From Rhizobium sp. L1K21 (GTDB lineage Bacteria > Pseudomonadota > Alphaproteobacteria > Rhizobiales > Rhizobiaceae): a stretch of DNA of 64,000 nt. Shown in pieces: positions 3,311 through 20,315 of this stretch. The DNA is taken from contig NZ_JAMXLE010000001.1 of the NCBI RefSeq assembly GCF_024055895.1, positions 2,162,698-2,226,697 of the forward strand, given 5' to 3'. The position numbers were made by a program, and so were the translations under genes. Within the stretch, counting starts at the first letter, position 1. Every line of letters begins with the position of its first letter. Under the pieces are notes generated by a model. The model saw only the letters and a program-made list of their open reading frames with translations, ran no database searches and was not told where the DNA came from.

Positions 3311-5086
3311 TCAAACTGCGTGCGACTGCAACCACATTTCAAGAAGCGCAGCCTGCCAAAGCTCCGAGCCACGCAGTGGCGTGATGTGATCGGCAGGTGC
3401 AGCAAAAAGCTGGTCCAGCCAGCTTTGCTGAAACAGACCACGCGATTTTGCCTTTTCCGAGGTCAAGGTGTCCTTGACCATCTCCAGGAAGGGGCCTTCG
3501 ATATATTTCAGCTGCGGAACAGGGAAATAGCCCTTCTTGCGGTCAATGACCTCGCTTGGGATGACCTGGCGCGCGGCATCCTTCAAGACACCCTTGCCGC
3601 CATCGTTCAACTTGAATTCCGGCGGTATGGTCGCGGCCAATTCCACCAGTTCATGATCGAGGAAGGGGACGCGGGCCTCAAGCCCCCAGGCCATGGTCAT
3701 GTTGTCCACGCGCTTGACCGGATCATCGACCAGCATCACCTGGCTGTCGAGGCGAAGCGCGCGATCAACCGGCGTTTCGGCATTCGGCATCATCAGATGC
3801 GTTGTCACAAGGTTGAAGCTTTCGTCTTCGTCAGCCATCCATTCCGGTGACAGTTGCGTCGCGAGCTTTGCATGGCTGCGGTCAAAGAAGACCTTGGCGT
3901 AATCGGTTGCCACATCATTGGAATTCATCAGCGGCGGATACCAGTGATAGCCGGCAAACACCTCATCGGCGCCCTGCCCGGACTGCACGACCTTGATATA
4001 TTTCGAGACTTCGCGCGACAGGAGATAAAAACCGATATTGTCGTAGGAGACCATCGGTTCAGACTGCGCATGGATCGTGCCGGGCAGATTTTCCATCAAT
4101 TGGTCGCCGGGGACGAAGATCTTGTGGTGATCGGTGCCGAAATGCTTGGCAATGAGATCGGAATAGACGAATTCGTCGCCCTTTTCACCATTGGCCTCTT
4201 CAAAACCGATGGAGAAGGTCATCAGATCCTTTTGGCCTTCTTCTGCCAGAAGGCCGACGATGACGCTCGAATCAACCCCGCCGGACAGGAGGACGCCGAC
4301 CGGCACATCAGCCACCATGCGGCGGCGCACAGCTGTGCGCAGCGCATCGAGCACGCGGTCGCGCCACTCTTCACGGGTGACGTCCTTGTCTTCGGTGCGG
4401 CGCAGATAAGGCGGCTGCCAGTAGACATGCTCACGCATGCTGCCATCGGCTTCATAGCGGCGGATGGTTGCAGGCGGCAGCTTGCGCACACCTTTGAGAA
4501 TCGTGCGCGGCGGCGGCACGACGGCGTGAAAGCTCATATAATTGTGCAGCGCCGCCCTGTCGATTTCGGTATCCGTGTCACCAGCGGCGAGGACGGCAGG
4601 CAAGGTGGAGGCAAACCGGAAACGCTTGCCATTGTGTGAATAATAGAAGGGTTTGATGCCAAAGCGGTCGCGGGCAATCGTCACCGCGCCGGTTTCGCGC
4701 TCATGGATTGCGAAGGCGAACATGCCATGGAAACGCTCCACGCAGGCCTCGCCCCAATGGTGGAACGCCTTGAGAATCACCTCCGTGTCGCCATGGGAGA
4801 AAAAGCTATAGCCGGCGTCGGTCAGATCTTTGCGCAACTCAGGGTAGTTGTAAATGCAGCCATTGAAAACGATCGTCAGCCCGAGCGCTGGGTCGGCCAT
4901 CGGCTGTGCGGCATTTTCGGAGAGGTCGATGATCTTCAGCCTTCGATGTCCGAATGCAAAGGCTCCCCTGGCCACTATGCCCGTTCCATCGGGGCCTCTG
5001 GGCGCAAGCGCCGCAGTCATTTTTTCAACAGCTGCGCTATCCGCAAACGATCCATCAAATCGGATTTCTCCGGCAATTCCACACAT
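3311..5086 (-). CDS. asnO: N-acetylglutaminylglutamine amidotransferase (asparagine synthase-like)
   Basis: This 591-residue protein resembles asparagine synthetase B. A class II glutaminase domain begins MCGIAGEIRFDG, where Cys2 is the nucleophile, followed by a synthetase domain with the PP-loop SGGVDSS. The start was fixed at this Met because class II amidotransferases need the Cys at position 2; the frame is open 31 codons further upstream. GGTGGAG precedes the ATG. As first gene of asnO-ngg-peptidase it should amidate N-acetylglutaminylglutamine to NAGGN, an osmoprotectant of S. meliloti and some pseudomonads. The 540-base upstream gap presumably holds an osmotically controlled promoter, although I see no defined element. 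Confidence 0.93.
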   Translation of the reverse strand: MCGIAGEIRFDGSFADSAAVEKMTAALAPRGPDGTGIVARGAFAFGHRRLKIIDLSENAAQPMADPALGLTIVFNGCIYNYPELRKDLTDAGYSFFSHGDTEVILKAFHHWGEACVERFHGMFAFAIHERETGAVTIARDRFGIKPFYYSHNGKRFRFASTLPAVLAAGDTDTEIDRAALHNYMSFHAVVPPPRTILKGVRKLPPATIRRYEADGSMREHVYWQPPYLRRTEDKDVTREEWRDRVLDALRTAVRRRMVADVPVGVLLSGGVDSSVIVGLLAEEGQKDLMTFSIGFEEANGEKGDEFVYSDLIAKHFGTDHHKIFVPGDQLMENLPGTIHAQSEPMVSYDNIGFYLLSREVSKYIKVVQSGQGADEVFAGYHWYPPLMNSNDVATDYAKVFFDRSHAKLATQLSPEWMADEDESFNLVTTHLMMPNAETPVDRALRLDSQVMLVDDPVKRVDNMTMAWGLEARVPFLDHELVELAATIPPEFKLNDGGKGVLKDAARQVIPSEVIDRKKGYFPVPQLKYIEGPFLEMVKDTLTSEKAKSRGLFQQSWLDQLFAAPADHITPLRGSELWQAALLEMWLQSHAV

Positions 5087-5628
5087 ATTGGCTCCACCTT
5101 CCACTTCTGCAGGACATGCCATACCCTGCCTTGTTGAAACTAAAATAAAAAAGGCGCGGACAGCGCCGCGCCTCTTCATAATGCCTCACTAACGCAAAAA
5201 GTTCCGCGTTTCAAATTTTCGGGCCGGCAGCGTAAGGCCAGCATATACAAAACCAGCCCTGGGCAAGACGGCGGACGATGCTTTAGCCAGCGTCATCTGG
5301 ATGTGCGACGGGGAAGGATCCGGTTCGAATTCAAAGGCACGCAAAGGGGCCCGGCCTTGTGGCACAACCCCGTAGAGCGCAGCGTTATCCTATTGAAGCG
5401 CCCGCCGCGCCGAAGACCTACCGTGAGAAGACTTCAAGGGAAGTTCAGCCTCGGCATTGAGATCGACGCCGAAATCTGGCCCGTCTCTCTCATCAACTAT
5501 GATCTAGGAAATATCGATGCCGCAGACAAAAAACCGTAATCATCCGACAACCCAATAGGCTTGAATTTGTCGCCTGTGTCTTAGGCAAACTCTGTTACCT
5601 ATGTCTACGGTATGGGCACAAAAGGAAA
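5087..5628. other. Intergenic region upstream of asnO
   Basis: This gap of about 540 bases lies between the asnO start and the tRNA-Ser gene. It should carry the asnO promoter. A 78-codon open frame on the plus strand resembles no family I know. I see no clear hairpin, repeat or operator. Confidence 0.5.
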
Positions 5629-7892: not shown

Positions 7893-10079
7893 CTAGGGCA
7901 GTCTTTCTTCCAGCGCCTTTAACGTTTCGGGGCCAAGCGCGCCATCCATCTTCCCGTTAAACGCGCCCTTTTCGGCCAGAAGCCTCTGAACCTCGGTCGC
8001 AAATTGATGAGTGAATTCCTGCGGTTCGTCGGTGAGCGCTTGCAACTGTGCTTTTTCGCCGTGTTCAATGGCGCTGAGTGCCCAGCGGGCTGCCTCCTTT
8101 GGATTTGGAGCGATGCCGAGCCCCTTGTCGTAGATCCGCGCTAGTCGGCTCATGGCGTAACTGCTTCCATCCGCAGCCGCCTTTTCATACCAGTAGCGGG
8201 CTTCGGTATAGTCCTGTTTGCCGCCGGAGCCTGCATCGTAAAGATAGCCGAGCACCGCCATGGCATAGGCATCGCCGGCACGAGCAGCTTTTTCATACCA
8301 TTGCCGTGCTGATTCCATGTTTTTCGCAGTCCCCAAGCCCTGCTCATGGGCATAGGCGGTGGCCGTCATGGCGTCCACATCACCGGCTTCCGCTGCCTTG
8401 CGATACCAATTCAACGAGGTGACGTAGTTCTGGTCGACGCCATCGCCTTCGCGGTAGAGAAATCCGAGTGCAGCCATTGCCTTGCCATAAGCCTGTTCCG
8501 CAGCCTGGCGGTACCAGTTGAGGGCCTGTTTCATGTCTTTGTCGAGGCCGGCTTTGCCGTTTCTGTAGGCCCACGCCAAGGATGTCTGAGCGAAAGGATT
8601 GCCGGCTTTCGCGGCTTGCTCAAAGAGCGTGCGGGCACGATTGCCATCGGCATCGACACCGTTTGCATCCAAATGGAGCCAGCCAAGATTGGTCATCGCA
8701 TAAGTGTTGCCGGCTGCGGCTGCCTTCTCATAGGCCTCGCTCGCCTCTTTGGCGTTATTCGATGCTTCATGCGCCCGTGCCAGAAAGTCTATCAACATGC
8801 CATTGTCGGGCTCTTCGTTGACGGCCTGGGCACAGGCCGTCAATGCGCGGCCGGCGTCAATGCGTTTCAAGGCAACACCCGGATAGCCCGGGATTGCGCC
8901 GGGTTCGGCGGCAAGCAGATAACAGTCCCGCCGCGCGGGGCTGATTGATTCTTCATTTGCGCTAGCGCGCGGCACCAGCGCGATGATCTGACTCTCGGCA
9001 GCACGCCGGTGGGCACTGTCGGGATAACGTTCCAGAAAACGCACAAACGCTGCAGCATCTGAAGAGCCGCGAATGGCCTCCCAGGCGATATCGTCGGCCT
9101 TGCCGGCAGTGGACTGGTCCTGTGCATTCAGCATTTCAAGCTTCTTTTCAGCCAGCAGCCGATAGACCGGGTCAGCTCCATGGCGCTCCAGAAAGACCTC
9201 AATCAATTCCTTGTCGGCGAGGTCGCGTATATTTTCCCAATCGGCAGCCGCAGAATTCTCCCCTGCCCCGCTCCCCATGTTGATTGTGGCCTCGTTGATA
9301 TTGAGGATCACCTGAGCTCCGCCGAGTGAACCATAAACAAAGGGCTCCTGCTGACGGTTTGTCAGCTCAATCACATAGTCGCGCACTTTGCCGAGCGCGA
9401 TGCGGATATCGAGGCCGGGTTCGACGAGAAACTTCGACAGGGCCAATGCAAAGGGCGAATTGCCGCTGGAGCCATCAAGCGCGACGGTTCCGGCGCGTGA
9501 TGCAAATGCAACCAGCATATCGGGAGCTTTCGGCTCCACCTTGGCCAAACCCTTTCCGAGCGAGCGGCTGGCGACAGAACGGGTCATGGTATTTGCAAAA
9601 GGATTGTCGCGGCAGGCATCCAATATCACCAGCTTCAGACGGGTGGCACCGTTCAATGCGCGCTCCAGACGTGAGAGAACCAAGGTTTCGTCGGCGACAT
9701 CGCGATCCGACTTGAGGGTCGCATCGACCGGGATGAGATAATTCCTGCCGTTCATTTCCATGCCGTGGCCGGAATAATAAACAAGTGCGACCTCGGCACC
9801 ATCTGCCAGGTCTTCGAAATCGCGCAGCGCCTTCTGCATGCCGCGCAGATCAAGATCGGACGCGATCTCGACGCTTGAAAAGCCGGCCTCTTTCAGCACA
9901 CCGGCCATCAACTCCGCATCATTGCGCGGATTGCTCAGATTGGAGACATTCTCATATGTCTGGTTGCCGATCAGCAGTGCCACGCGGCGGCCCGTTTGTG
10001 CAGACGCAGCGCCATTCATCAATGCCAGCATGAGCAGGCATGCGAGTGTCAGCAATACGGAGCGGCTCAACCGGCGCAT
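7893..10079 (-). CDS. Exported caspase-like (C14) protein with Sel1 repeats and a peptidoglycan-binding-like end
   Basis: A 728-residue protein with three parts. After a signal peptide (about 1-27) comes a metacaspase-like domain with catalytic His105 in YYSGHGME and Cys156 in LDACRDNPF, both kept. Residues of about 470-690 hold roughly six Sel1 repeats (for example YAMAVLGYLYDAG and ARYWYEKAAADG). The last 40 or so residues, with FNGKMDGALGPETLKALEE, resemble a peptidoglycan-binding type 1 domain. I chose the ATG at MRRLSRS because GAGGGGAG precedes it and a signal peptide follows. It is probably periplasmic. Caspase/Sel1 proteins are common in Rhizobiales, but their substrates are unknown to me. 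The neighbouring propeller gene is divergent. Confidence 0.85.
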   Translation of the reverse strand: MRRLSRSVLLTLACLLMLALMNGAASAQTGRRVALLIGNQTYENVSNLSNPRNDAELMAGVLKEAGFSSVEIASDLDLRGMQKALRDFEDLADGAEVALVYYSGHGMEMNGRNYLIPVDATLKSDRDVADETLVLSRLERALNGATRLKLVILDACRDNPFANTMTRSVASRSLGKGLAKVEPKAPDMLVAFASRAGTVALDGSSGNSPFALALSKFLVEPGLDIRIALGKVRDYVIELTNRQQEPFVYGSLGGAQVILNINEATINMGSGAGENSAAADWENIRDLADKELIEVFLERHGADPVYRLLAEKKLEMLNAQDQSTAGKADDIAWEAIRGSSDAAAFVRFLERYPDSAHRRAAESQIIALVPRASANEESISPARRDCYLLAAEPGAIPGYPGVALKRIDAGRALTACAQAVNEEPDNGMLIDFLARAHEASNNAKEASEAYEKAAAAGNTYAMTNLGWLHLDANGVDADGNRARTLFEQAAKAGNPFAQTSLAWAYRNGKAGLDKDMKQALNWYRQAAEQAYGKAMAALGFLYREGDGVDQNYVTSLNWYRKAAEAGDVDAMTATAYAHEQGLGTAKNMESARQWYEKAARAGDAYAMAVLGYLYDAGSGGKQDYTEARYWYEKAAADGSSYAMSRLARIYDKGLGIAPNPKEAARWALSAIEHGEKAQLQALTDEPQEFTHQFATEVQRLLAEKGAFNGKMDGALGPETLKALEERLP

Positions 10080-16790: not shown

Positions 16791-17024
16791 CTAATGCAGC
16801 GAGCGCACCCTGCGGTCGCGCAGTTCTCTTGGCACCGGCGCCATCTGGCAGAAAAGCTGTTTGAGTTCCTGATCGAGCAACTGCGGTGATTCCAGGCTTT
16901 CGATCCGCTGGATTTCGTCCGAGGCCGCCATGAAAGGGTCCACGTCTATTGGCAGGCTCAAGAGCCAATCCAGAAACATTTCCTTGGCAATCAACTCAAT
17001 CTTGTCCGCGCTCTTCTGATTCAT
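16791..17024 (-). CDS. Small conserved-looking protein in the gbcAB operon
   Basis: A 77-residue hydrophilic helical protein (MNQKSADKIELIAKEMFLDW at its start) with no signal peptide or membrane segment. Its ATG begins one base after the gbcB stop, so it is translated from the gbcA-gbcB transcript. No motif is recognised; a single Cys sits in LFCQM. From position alone it may be an accessory factor for the demethylase or its regulation. An in-frame ATG 18 bases upstream inside gbcB is a less likely start. Confidence 0.68.
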   Translation of the reverse strand: MNQKSADKIELIAKEMFLDWLLSLPIDVDPFMAASDEIQRIESLESPQLLDQELKQLFCQMAPVPRELRDRRVRSLH

Positions 17025-17025
17025 A

Positions 17026-18141
17026 TCAAGCCTCGATTTCAACTGGTCCTAGCGGACGCGAGCAGCAGGCGAGGATATAGCCGTCTTCCAGATCGCTGTC
17101 CGAGATGCCGCCATTGTGCTGAATGTCCACCTCGCCGGAGCGCTTTTTGACCTTGCAGGTACCGCAAAGGCCGCTTTCGCAGGCAGCGGGAATGCGAACG
17201 CCACTTGCGCGCGCCGTCTGCAAAACGGTCTGACCGTCCAGTGCGGTGCCAACCGTGCCTGACGAGAGAAATTCCACGCGATGACCGTCGAGCGCCCCTT
17301 CTGCTTCGGCAATGATTTCGTCGACGGCCATGAGCGGGGTTTTCGCGGCTGGTGCCACCACGAAACTTTCCTGATGGTAGCGGGCCATATCGAAGCCCTC
17401 CGACCTCAGAAGGCTGCTGACGGCGTTCATGAACGGCTCGGGGCCGCAGCAGAACACTTCGCGCTTGAGGAAGTCGGGTGCCAGAATTTTCAGCTTCTGC
17501 AGGTCGATGCGGCCCGTGAAACCGGCCCAGGGCGTGGAGCGGGTGCGGGTTTCGGAAATGAAGCCGAGCTTCAAGTTTTCCATGTGGGTGGACATGAAAT
17601 GCAGCTCGTCGCGGAAAATGATTTCTTCCGGGGTGCGTACCGAGTTGATGAAGGTGATATCTGTTGCCGGTGCACAATCGCTCAGCCAGCGGGTCATCGA
17701 CATCATTGGCGTGATGCCAGAACCGGCCGATATGAAGAGATATCGGCTGGCAAGCTTGCGGCTCAGCGTGAAATGACCATTCGGCCCGTAGGCACGGATG
17801 CGCGAACCGGGGTGAACATTGTCGAAAATCCAGCGCGTTCCAATGCTGTTGGGCTGCGCTTTGATGGTGATCGAAATGGCATAAGGACGCGACGGAGAAG
17901 ACGAAATCGTATAGGTGCGATGCAGGTCTCCGCCCATGGCGCGCAGTTCCAGCGTAATGAACTGGCCCGGCAGATAACGAAACCAGCCGCCCCCCTCCAC
18001 CGCAAAAGTGAAGGTTTTCACATTGGGGGCTTCGTCGGCAACATTCAGACACACCAGCATCTGGCGTGACGAATTCCACGGCTTCATCTCATCGAGATGC
18101 AAGGCTGCGGGAACGGCTCCCGTGAGGGCGACTGCGTTCAT
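17026..18141 (-). CDS. gbcB: Glycine betaine demethylase reductase subunit
   Basis: A 371-residue oxidoreductase with an FAD-binding reductase part (RTYTISSSPS, about 97-106, for flavin), an NAD-binding part (FISAGSGITPMMSM, about 156-169) and a C-terminal plant-type 2Fe-2S ferredoxin domain with CESGLCGTCKVK and a fourth Cys in ILACCS. This is the GbcB layout. It passes electrons from NAD(P)H to the Rieske oxygenase GbcA for removal of a methyl group from glycine betaine. It lies 17 bases after gbcA. GGGAGATAAGCTGAG precedes the ATG. A carnitine or stachydrine demethylase reductase would look alike; the partner decides the call. Confidence 0.9.
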   Translation of the reverse strand: MNAVALTGAVPAALHLDEMKPWNSSRQMLVCLNVADEAPNVKTFTFAVEGGGWFRYLPGQFITLELRAMGGDLHRTYTISSSPSRPYAISITIKAQPNSIGTRWIFDNVHPGSRIRAYGPNGHFTLSRKLASRYLFISAGSGITPMMSMTRWLSDCAPATDITFINSVRTPEEIIFRDELHFMSTHMENLKLGFISETRTRSTPWAGFTGRIDLQKLKILAPDFLKREVFCCGPEPFMNAVSSLLRSEGFDMARYHQESFVVAPAAKTPLMAVDEIIAEAEGALDGHRVEFLSSGTVGTALDGQTVLQTARASGVRIPAACESGLCGTCKVKKRSGEVDIQHNGGISDSDLEDGYILACCSRPLGPVEIEA

Positions 18142-18158: not shown

Positions 18159-19409
18159 TCAGGCAACAGAGCGCAAGGATGGTTTACCCTCGCCGGACAG
18201 GCGCGATTCCATGAAGCGTGTGTACCACTCCACGAACTGAGCAACGCCGCCTTCATGAACCTCGGAATAAGGACCCGGCTCGTATGCCGGCGAGAGAATG
18301 CCGCGGGCGTTTTCCTCAACGATCTGGCGGTCCTGATCATTTGTTTCGGTCCAGACGTGGGTCAGTTCCTCCAGGCGGTAGTCAATGCCCTCGACGGCGT
18401 CCTTGTGGACCAGCCACTTGGTCGTGACCGCCGTTTCCGTCGCGCTGATCGGCATGACGCGGAAGGTAATCGCGTGGTCGGACAGAACGTGGTTCCAGGT
18501 CGTCGGATAGTGGAACAGAAGCAGGGTTCCGATGCGATCCTGATTGACCTGATCCGAAAGGCGCATGTGCACGGCCTTGCGGCCCGAAATCGTGTAGCTG
18601 ATCGCATCGCGCAGAAGCGGCATGCGGGCTGCGCGGAACTGACCGTCTTCGTCGATCTGGAATTTGCTCGGCAGGCCGATTGCCTCGCATTTGGCCCAAT
18701 GTTCGGCCGTTTCCGGGTCATCGGCCGCACCGCTGACGCCGGAGATTGAGGGGTTCTCCGGATAGGTTTTGCAAAGCTCAGGATGGTTGCCAGCGCAGTG
18801 GTAGCATTCGCGGTTGTTTTCCCAGACGAGCTTCCAGTTGCCCTTCTCAATGATCGTGCTTTCGTAAGCCACTTTGGCCTCACGCAGACGGTGCGGCAGG
18901 AAATAGGGTTCCATCGTCTTGCGGAACGGCTCGAAATTCATCGGTTCGTCGGCGAGCGAAATGAAGATGTAGCCGCCGGCGCTCTCGCAAGCCACCTGTT
19001 TCAGACCGAATTGCGACGGGTCGAAATTATCGCCCATCTGGCGGGCGAACATCAGCGAGCCATCCAGATCATAGGTCCACTGGTGATAGGGACATACAAG
19101 ATTGGCCGCGCTACCGCGATGTTCGGCACAGACGCGCGAACCGCGATGGCGGCAGGAGTTATGCAGTGCGTTGATCTTACCATCGCGACCGCGCACGATG
19201 ATCACGGAATAGGCCCCGACATCGACCGTCATATAGTTGCCGGGGTTGGGCACTTCGCAATCATGACCGACAAAGAGCCAGTCCTTGTACCAGATATTTT
19301 CCAGGTCGACCTGGAAGTAATCGGGATCGTTGTAAAAAGGCCGGTCCAGTGTGTAACCGGGCTTACGGTTACGGAGCCGGGAAAGCATATCAGAGCGAAT
19401 ATCCATCAT
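18159..19409 (-). CDS. gbcA: Glycine betaine demethylase, Rieske oxygenase subunit
   Basis: A 416-residue Rieske non-heme iron oxygenase alpha subunit that closely resembles pseudomonad GbcA, which converts glycine betaine to dimethylglycine and formaldehyde. The Rieske cluster ligands are C86-x-H88 in SCRHRG and C106-x2-H109 in CPYHQW. The mononuclear iron histidines H204 and H209 lie in ENNRECYHCAGNHPE. I chose the ATG giving MMDIRSDM, with GAGGACCAA before it. A second ATG 29 codons upstream is in frame, has AAGGAGCGG directly before it and lies close to the riboswitch, so it may be the regulated start. A cobalamin riboswitch precedes the operon. Confidence 0.9.
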   Translation of the reverse strand: MMDIRSDMLSRLRNRKPGYTLDRPFYNDPDYFQVDLENIWYKDWLFVGHDCEVPNPGNYMTVDVGAYSVIIVRGRDGKINALHNSCRHRGSRVCAEHRGSAANLVCPYHQWTYDLDGSLMFARQMGDNFDPSQFGLKQVACESAGGYIFISLADEPMNFEPFRKTMEPYFLPHRLREAKVAYESTIIEKGNWKLVWENNRECYHCAGNHPELCKTYPENPSISGVSGAADDPETAEHWAKCEAIGLPSKFQIDEDGQFRAARMPLLRDAISYTISGRKAVHMRLSDQVNQDRIGTLLLFHYPTTWNHVLSDHAITFRVMPISATETAVTTKWLVHKDAVEGIDYRLEELTHVWTETNDQDRQIVEENARGILSPAYEPGPYSEVHEGGVAQFVEWYTRFMESRLSGEGKPSLRSVA

Positions 19410-19540
19410 TTGGTCCTCGAAAAAGCAACAAGGACTGGGCCTGTGGACACGATTGGAAACGACCGCCCCGCCCGGAATTCCGGCAAACAGGGTCATCCGC
19501 TCCTTGACCGCCCACCGCGATCAGTCAGATTCAATTTTTC

Positions 19541-19713
19541 CGAGGCTGGTTTCCGGGCTAGAGAATTGTCCTTTCGAACTGCGCGACACCTTCCCAGGCA
19601 TTTGCCCAGTGGCCTCCCGTCGCGCTTTGATCCTCTTACCGTTGCGGGGGCAGCGCCGGACTTTCACCGGCTTCCCAATTCTCTTGAAACATCCACAATG
19701 CTCAAGCACCTCG
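19541..19713 (-). promoter_or_regulatory. Cobalamin (B12) riboswitch upstream of gbcA
   Basis: Read on the minus strand this is a complete AdoCbl-type aptamer. It has the core GCCGGTGAAAGTCCGGC, then GCTGCCCCCGCAACGGTAAG, then the B12 box GCCACTGG and CTGGGAAGG, and a closing pair CGAGG (19709-19713) with CCTCG (19541-19545). The end AGCCCGGAAACCAGCC matches the usual 3' part. Known riboswitches of this class reduce expression when B12 is plentiful. The next gene on the strand is gbcA; a ribosome binding site AAGGAG lies about 40 bases beyond the aptamer, which suits control of translation. Confidence 0.93.
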
Positions 19714-19829
19714 ATTGAACCCATATCACCACAGGATTTTTGCAGTGGCGATATCGTTTGCGACATGAATCTGCCGTTCAAAGAAAAACTTGAAATTTGC
19801 AAAGGGCAATCAGAGGTCTGAGACAGCAC

Positions 19830-20315
19830 CTAGTTTGAAAGCTTCGCGAGAAATGTCTTGAGAAGAGCGTTCAGCGCTTCCCTTTCCTGCTCGCTCAAGG
19901 GCGCAACAAGGGCACGCTGATTCTCCACATGCGCGGCAACGACCTCTTCGATCAGCGCTAAGCCTGCAGGCGTCAGGGTCACGATCATGCTGCGGCGATC
20001 TTGCGGATTCTGCTGGCGCGTTACCAAGCCTGCCTTGACGAGCTGATCAATACGGTTGGTGACCGTACCCGATGTGATCATCATGCTTTCCATCAATTCG
20101 CCGGGCGATAGCTGATAGGGCGAACCGGAGCGGCGCAATGTGGCCAGAACGTCGAAGGATGCGCTGTTCAAACCAAAGCGGCTGAAGATGGCCTCATGAC
20201 GCCGGGCTATAAACTCACGCAGCTGGGCGAGCCGGCCGATGAGCGCCATGGGCTCGACATCCAGGTCGGGCCTTTCACGGTGCCACTGCTCGATGATCTT
20301 GTCGACGTCGTCCAT
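19830..20315 (-). CDS. MarR-family transcriptional regulator
   Basis: A 161-residue MarR-type repressor: helical dimerisation ends flank a winged helix-turn-helix (about 40-120) with ITSGTVTNRIDQLVKAGLV as the recognition region and QNPQDRRSMIVTLTPAG as the wing. The start MDDVDKII was chosen; a GTG five codons upstream is also possible because neither has a strong ribosome binding site. It is divergent from an EamA exporter and the short space between them holds two palindromes that should be its operators, so it probably represses both genes until a ligand binds. The ligand is unknown. Confidence 0.9.
   Translation of the reverse strand: MDDVDKIIEQWHRERPDLDVEPMALIGRLAQLREFIARRHEAIFSRFGLNSASFDVLATLRRSGSPYQLSPGELMESMMITSGTVTNRIDQLVKAGLVTRQQNPQDRRSMIVTLTPAGLALIEEVVAAHVENQRALVAPLSEQEREALNALLKTFLAKLSN

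Follow-up and report, generated by a model that had tools for sequence, protein, structure and literature searches.

A cobalamin riboswitch on the minus strand of a 64,000-nucleotide (nt) stretch of the Rhizobium sp. L1K21 genome (contig NZ_JAMXLE010000001.1, positions 2,162,698 to 2,226,697; hereafter the window) lies directly before a gbcA-gbcB-like operon that, judged from sequence, very probably encodes a betaine-type demethylase. Across related genomes, this riboswitch tends to occur where an MttB-family corrinoid methyltransferase is encoded, which fits the rule, described in the available text of three earlier papers (PMC2211319, PMC3766115, PMC9600662), that a B12 riboswitch represses the B12-independent member of an enzyme pair when a B12-dependent counterpart is present in the genome. 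We consider it likely that the arrangement is an isozyme switch in betaine catabolism, in which GbcAB would act as the B12-independent backup of the B12-dependent demethylase MtgBCD. More cautiously, we lean towards the broader reading that GbcAB and MtgBCD form a further, catabolic isozyme pair chosen by B12 riboswitches, and that loss of the corrinoid route is soon followed by loss of the riboswitch, so that a riboswitch before a gbcA-like gene would predict an MtgBCD-type route in that genome.

The initial annotation of the window had proposed a complete B12 aptamer at this site, and the covariance model of Rfam family RF00174 matched it over the whole model with 110.5 bits, against a gathering score of 31.5 (E = 8.2e-27), the sole riboswitch above threshold in an Rfam scan of the entire window. 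The kissing-loop partner downstream of the aptamer was also present, with loop L13 of the P13 hairpin complementary to loop L5 of the aptamer; L13 read GCGG[T/C]GGGC exactly in 81 of 89 riboswitch-bearing leaders, and the L5 octamer GCCCCCGC was exact in 57 of the 58 riboswitch rows counted. Given that large aptamers with a kissing loop belong to the adenosylcobalamin class, we take adenosylcobalamin as the probable ligand. Strand-wise gene order placed a Rieske oxygenase alpha subunit, its reductase and an open reading frame (ORF) of 83 amino acids (aa) 3′ of the riboswitch on the same strand, with no B12 gene between, confirming the operon arrangement that had been described.

The placement was conserved beyond the window, as the initial annotation had proposed checking in other Rhizobiales. 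Of 397 genomes sampled across the order, 46 carried a gbcA-like gene at E ≤ 1e-130 and 125 carried MttB; Rfam found a riboswitch upstream of gbcA in 25 of the 46, all 25 of which have MttB, and the 21 gbcA genomes without the riboswitch comprised 13 without MttB (stated completeness 92–100%) and 8 with it. Among named close homologs, 59 of 80 loci bore the riboswitch according to a string detector that agreed with Rfam at 63 of 63 loci and then at 20 of 20 more. MttB was searched for in the genomes of 49 of these 80 loci, 30 riboswitch-positive loci being left out, and was present in 27 of 28 genomes with the riboswitch and 0 of 21 without. Genomes found twice were merged (L142 is L013 and L131 is L043), as were the paralogs of G254 and G377 and the second copy of G150; L134 was left out, and L176, a broken gene, was kept as a row in row-level counts and removed from the tree and the genome-level count. 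The resulting pool of 97 genomes contained 55 with both features, 33 with neither, 8 with MttB only and 1 with the riboswitch only, which places an MttB-family protein in 55 of 56 genomes with a riboswitch before gbcA versus 8 of 41 without.

The lone genome with a riboswitch and no MttB, that of Rhizobium sp. Leaf371 (L151), carried the weakest of 12 riboswitches (57.9 bits, the next scoring 79.3) with an altered L13, and looks like a switch decaying after the loss of its partner. Both features also varied together at short range: within genus g2, G396 has riboswitch and MttB and G023, G187, G281 and G385 have neither, and four of the five congeners of the window genome examined have both.

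The window genome itself (G000; 4.34 Mb in 11 contigs) contains four cobalamin riboswitches. ORFs neighbouring the remaining three code for CobU, for a cobalt uptake protein of the CbiM type and for a nitroreductase-family member that we take to be BluB, and gbcAB appears to be the only riboswitch target outside B12 and cobalt metabolism in this genome. Its single MttB-family (PF06253) gene lies at locus L072 (C7:1.262-1.274 Mb) in an mtg-like cluster of mtgB-, mtgC-, mtgD- and mtgE-like genes, the MtgD-like protein being pterin-binding, together with genes for a RACo activase, a DUF1638 protein, an MTHFR-like protein and a homocysteine methyltransferase, and this cluster adjoins CobB/CobQ-like and cobU genes. 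Among solved structures, the MttB-family protein scored 1009 bits against 4yyc (titled putative trimethylamine methyltransferase), 427 against 2qne and 427 against the glycine betaine methyltransferase 9yce, with characterised trimethylamine methyltransferases reaching only 127 bits. The genome also holds a gene with dimethylglycine-dehydrogenase-like domains. In Sinorhizobium meliloti, according to the accessible part of Mausz et al. 2025 (PMC12478193), the cobalamin operon lies together with mtgBCDE and the reductive modules, the same layout as in the window genome.

None of the four riboswitches of the window genome precedes the mtg genes, and in each of the three genomes checked for this point, the window genome, G254 and G377, a riboswitch stands on the B12-independent member only. 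G254 and G377 each have a divergent arrangement, with riboswitch-gbcAB on one side, mtgC (81% identical to that of the window genome), DUF1638 (49%), mtgD (88%) and RACo (66%) on the other, and an Rfam riboswitch on the gbcA side only; in G044, riboswitch-gbcAB adjoins a dimethylglycine dehydrogenase (DMGDH)-like gene and an MttB gene. Judged from homology and gene context, GbcAB and the MttB route may perform the same step.

The leader RNA was compared over 24 aligned leaders picked from close relatives, in which every cell of P13 was paired, yet three of its four pairs were invariant. A second hairpin, which lies ~70 nt beyond P13 and contains the gbcA Shine-Dalgarno (SD) sequence, was paired in 94% of cells, and P13 and the SD hairpin jointly reached 96.2%, compared with 27–52% when slid; the SD hairpin differs in leaders of other branches. 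The CAAGGA element and the TCCTTG of the 5′ arm of the SD hairpin were paired in 79.9% of cells, compared with 19–69% when slid, a weak hint that CAAGGA might act as an antisequestor; such pairing is one way in which docking of P13 might be coupled to the distant SD hairpin. A scan of 19350-19900 for intrinsic terminators found no such pattern. Given the conserved SD hairpin and this lack of an intrinsic terminator pattern, masking of the SD sequence, and hence translational control, is the favoured but unproven mechanism. A pairing of the 3′ strand of P1 with the SD sequence, taken from a fold of the window's leader, was rejected, as it was by eye not conserved in the leader alignment and the fold was no better than shuffles.

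The conserved gbcA start is the ATG at 19406 (or 19409). A start at 19496, which would give an N-terminally extended GbcA with a strong SD sequence just past P13, is in frame in the window and some relatives and is not conserved; because 36 of 89 riboswitch-bearing leaders have an in-frame stop between the P13 hairpin and the aligned start, we placed the start at 19406 or 19409. The riboswitch-gbcA distance was 231–234 nt in the Mesorhizobium leaders L099, L105 and L112, compared with ~130 nt in most leaders.

We propose that, when cobalamin is plentiful, the leader would bind its ligand, the L5-L13 kissing loop would form, and the ligand-bound leader would shut off gbcA-gbcB, most likely at translation through the SD hairpin. 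Betaine would then be demethylated by MtgB-MtgC-MtgD, with the methyl group saved as methyl-tetrahydrofolate. When B12 is short, the MtgBCD route would fail and the riboswitch would let go, presumably switching the operon on, and the O2- and NADH-dependent GbcAB would carry out the same step, converting betaine to dimethylglycine and formaldehyde, without B12.

The names gbcA and gbcB, given in the initial annotation, hold at the family level, where GbcA and GbcB are the best NCBIfam models of the two subunits, and not at the level of the equivalog cut-offs. The domain make-up is that of GbcAB, with a Rieske and a ring-hydroxylase catalytic domain and a FAD/NAD/2Fe-2S reductase partner. Homologs of gbcA in the order-wide sample fell in steps of 63–71%, 52–58% and ≤48% identity. 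The Paracoccus versutus ortholog, 70% identical and without a riboswitch by the string detector, is flanked on one side by a GbdR-like regulator (188 bits, cut-off 480) and on the other by a formaldehyde dehydrogenase annotated as glutathione-independent, in a cluster with a BCCT transporter (626 bits on the NCBIfam glycine betaine model, cut-off 650), electron-transfer flavoprotein genes, folD and an FAD oxidoreductase that we read as DMGDH-like. This ortholog, in its betaine-type cluster, likewise scored below the GbcA and GbcB cut-offs (535.3 and 366.9 bits). The more distant, riboswitch-less G119 and G116 have nearby homologs of the P. versutus oxidoreductase (80%) and regulator (64–71%). 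On this gene context, glycine betaine is the likeliest substrate of GbcAB. For the 83-aa ORF, neither Pfam nor NCBIfam gave a match, nor did tblastn in the 80 named loci at E ≤ 1e-8 over half its length.

Table 1. Features of the riboswitch-gbcAB region, in window coordinates.
Feature	Coordinates	Strand	Remarks
Cobalamin riboswitch aptamer	19527..19728	minus	RF00174 model positions 1-189; core conserved across 21 aligned cobalamin riboswitches
P13 hairpin of the expression platform	19506..19522	minus	Loop L13 GCGGTGGGC at 19518-19510, complementary to aptamer L5 GCCCCCGC (kissing loop)
CAAGGA element	19501..19506	minus	Directly 3′ of P13; candidate antisequestor, could pair with TCCTTG of the SD hairpin
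SD hairpin	19413..19435	minus	GTCCTTG (19435-19429) / CGAGGAC (19419-19413); contains the gbcA SD sequence; 24 aligned leaders
gbcA-like Rieske oxygenase alpha subunit	18159..19406	minus	415 aa from ATG 19406; ATG 19409 also possible
gbcB-like FAD/NAD/2Fe-2S reductase	17026..18141	minus	371 aa
Small ORF at the gbcB stop	16791..17042	minus	83 aa; shorter from ATG 17024

Several observations weigh against an isozyme switch in betaine catabolism. Fisher counts ignore relatedness, and eight genomes combine MttB with a gbcA-like gene that no riboswitch precedes. Seven of the eight belong to the more distant rows; in these rows (<61% identity, n = 23, taking in relatives of the branch of the oxygenase Stc2), 6 had both features, 8 neither and 9 MttB only (p = 0.058, not significant). 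In the fifth congener, G397, MttB is present alongside a broken gbcA copy that has no riboswitch. On the gbcA protein tree of 105 rows, with at least 10 changes of the riboswitch and at least 9 of MttB, six supported independent pairs differed in the riboswitch, with MttB differing the same way in 4.2 (mean), the opposite way in 0 and not at all in 1.9; the sign test was not significant on so few events (median p = 0.125, range 0.031–0.5). The reverse test over seven pairs gave 4.2 the same way, 0 opposite and 2.8 without a difference, making the support from independent pairs only suggestive. In the leader, two SD-hairpin pairs with both sides changed among the 24 leaders lay within the chance of shuffles, the stretch folded alone was no better than shuffles (z = −0.10), and the P13-to-start distance of ~100 nt is unaccounted for by the proposed mechanism. 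As for the enzymes, the subunits scored 518.5 bits on NCBIfam GbcA (cut-off 670) and 373.9 on GbcB (cut-off 500), both short of the equivalog cut-offs, the corrinoid protein scored best on NCBIfam MtgC models and below their cut-offs (205.1 vs 370; 166.6 vs 310), and PF06253 takes in several substrates.

Two irregular loci were seen alongside these counts. The broken gene of G397 (L176, G397:C4:3464455-3465405) contains two in-frame TGA codons and matches residues 1–318 only. In the gene tree, L092 (Sinorhizobium fredii USDA 205, contig49), whose gbcA is 82% identical to that of the window, groups with the window's genus and Rhizobium sp. G21, not with the Ensifer/Sinorhizobium rows L132 and L137, an odd placement that reflects either transfer or contamination.

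Because the GbcA, GbcB and MtgC scores fell below their cut-offs and 3vca is among the closest solved relatives of the gbcA product, both enzymes could share a quaternary amine other than glycine betaine as substrate, such as proline betaine or carnitine. The nearest solved structures were 3n0q (536 bits) and 3vca (525 bits, close to the score on the GbcA model), the alignment with 3vca spanning residues 9-403, nearly the full length. We take 3vca to be Stc2, a proline-betaine (stachydrine) demethylase, and its substrate accordingly to be proline betaine; members of the MttB family also act on several substrates. However, the betaine-catabolic neighbourhood of the P. versutus ortholog points to glycine betaine, and the MttB protein of the window genome is closer to glycine betaine methyltransferase than to trimethylamine methyltransferases among named structures. 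We regard a switch pair devoted to another amine as unlikely. The S. meliloti gene of Stc2 (L177) sits in another branch of the gene tree than the window gbcA.

An alternative partner for GbcAB is MetH. If MetH stalled without B12, methyl-tetrahydrofolate would accumulate, and formaldehyde from GbcAB would offer an alternative one-carbon source that relieves this folate methyl trap, with MetH rather than MtgB as the counterpart. This methionine or one-carbon explanation stays alive because metH lies near gbcAB in some genomes: it is 3′ of gbcA-gbcB on the same strand in G050 (L074, domains shown), is suggested at the same place in G087 (L082) by tblastn matches only, and occurs in split form nearby in G061 (L075); the homocysteine methyltransferase in the mtg cluster of the window genome would also suit it. 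It predicts, however, no link to MttB, unless MetH is missing from the same genomes, and we hold it to be decidedly improbable. These neighbourhoods have features of their own. The metH gene product is itself B12-dependent, yet metH borders a presumably B12-repressed operon in G050 and G087. G061 has a second, stronger cobalamin riboswitch (136 bits, 9413-9617, minus strand), divergent to the gbcA one and leading towards a LysR gene and the split metH, and G189 (L080) has two further cobalamin riboswitches (1683-1890 and 4904-5103, plus strand) at most 8 kb upstream of its riboswitch-gbcA operon.

The initial annotation had instead suggested that B12 shortage turns on betaine demethylation to feed corrin synthesis, with glycine going to 5-aminolevulinate and methyl groups to the corrin ring. 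The riboswitch is real, and betaine is described, in the available text of PMC8123684, as raising industrial B12 output. Were this its role, the riboswitch should follow corrin synthesis; the distribution of the corrin marker cbiC was the reverse. In a control set of 66 genome handles, representing 65 distinct genomes (G406 is G023), cbiC was present in 63 and missing in G063, G427 and G432. The genomes G427 (Mesorhizobium sp. J18) and G432 (Aquibium carbonis), to be read with caution as drafts, have no cbiC, yet keep MttB and a riboswitch before gbcA (L104 and L127, confirmed by Rfam), and cbiC was present in 34 of the 35 handles without a riboswitch before gbcA, G063 lacking both. All 66 handles have a B12 riboswitch somewhere in the genome, 65 of them above the family cut-off (G063 below), and because each of the other handles in which none precedes gbcA has 2 to 7 matches at other sites, a general loss of B12 riboswitch RNA was ruled out. 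A role in corrin supply also leaves the link to MttB unexplained, and on the cbiC pattern and the MttB association we discarded it as very improbable, retaining from the earlier interpretation a B12 riboswitch target outside B12 metabolism that is very probably a demethylase of the betaine type and presumably comes on under B12 shortage.

A Pagel-type likelihood test favoured dependent evolution of riboswitch and MttB, with p-values that are rough because a gene tree was used for a genome trait (100 rows, likelihood ratio 25.3, p = 4.4e-5; close clade of 77 rows, likelihood ratio 21.1, p = 3.0e-4), and the fit estimated riboswitch loss as far faster where MttB is absent. That the riboswitch is an inert passenger inherited with gbcA, linked to MttB by shared ancestry alone, draws on the few independent events and the non-significant independent-pairs test but deserves hardly any credence against the 100-row likelihood result, the joint presence or absence within genus g2, the weak riboswitch of the single exception and the near-invariant L13.

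An isozyme switch in betaine catabolism would resemble the metE/MetH and nrdAB/NrdJ pairs, in which a B12 riboswitch stands on the B12-independent member and the B12-dependent counterpart is in the same genome. By contrast with these pairs, the present one is catabolic, its members are unrelated in domains and chemistry (a Rieske oxygenase and a corrinoid methyltransferase), and switching would in addition trade O2 and NADH use for methyl conservation. The operon shares its domain make-up and best NCBIfam models with GbcAB of Pseudomonas and Chromohalobacter, and the related P. versutus operon has a GbdR-like regulator, whereas the operon of the window scores below the equivalog cut-offs and is led by a B12 riboswitch. 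The mtg-like cluster contains the same kinds of part, beside cobalamin genes, as MtgBCDE, the cobalamin-dependent betaine demethylase/methionine synthase described for Ruegeria pomeroyi and S. meliloti (PMC12478193). The accessible text of that paper names GbcAB bacteria as being without MtgBCDE, gives no account of both occurring together under a riboswitch, and mentions a riboswitch solely in the title of a reference on the glycine riboswitch.

In the literature searched, partly available as excerpts and with subscription journals mostly absent, we came across neither a B12 riboswitch placed before gbcA nor a betaine demethylase described as such an isozyme. Rodionov and colleagues reportedly noted in 2003 a hypothetical ring-hydroxylating oxygenase/ferredoxin-type pair, ardX-frdX, under B12 elements in alphaproteobacteria, which may be this operon; the placement would then have been seen at that time, reportedly without the function proposed here. 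Repression of isozymes by cobalamin riboswitches is already established, and the new part appears to be the pairing with MtgBCD and its comparative support.

If an isozyme switch in betaine catabolism is indeed at work, it would connect what becomes of an osmolyte very abundant in plants and the sea with the supply of B12, and a catabolic pair would join metE and nrdAB as examples of isozyme switching by B12. Riboswitch placement may offer a way to assign partners to MttB-family proteins, and rhizobia that possess both GbcAB-like and MtgBCD-like routes would gain a defined rule for choosing between them.

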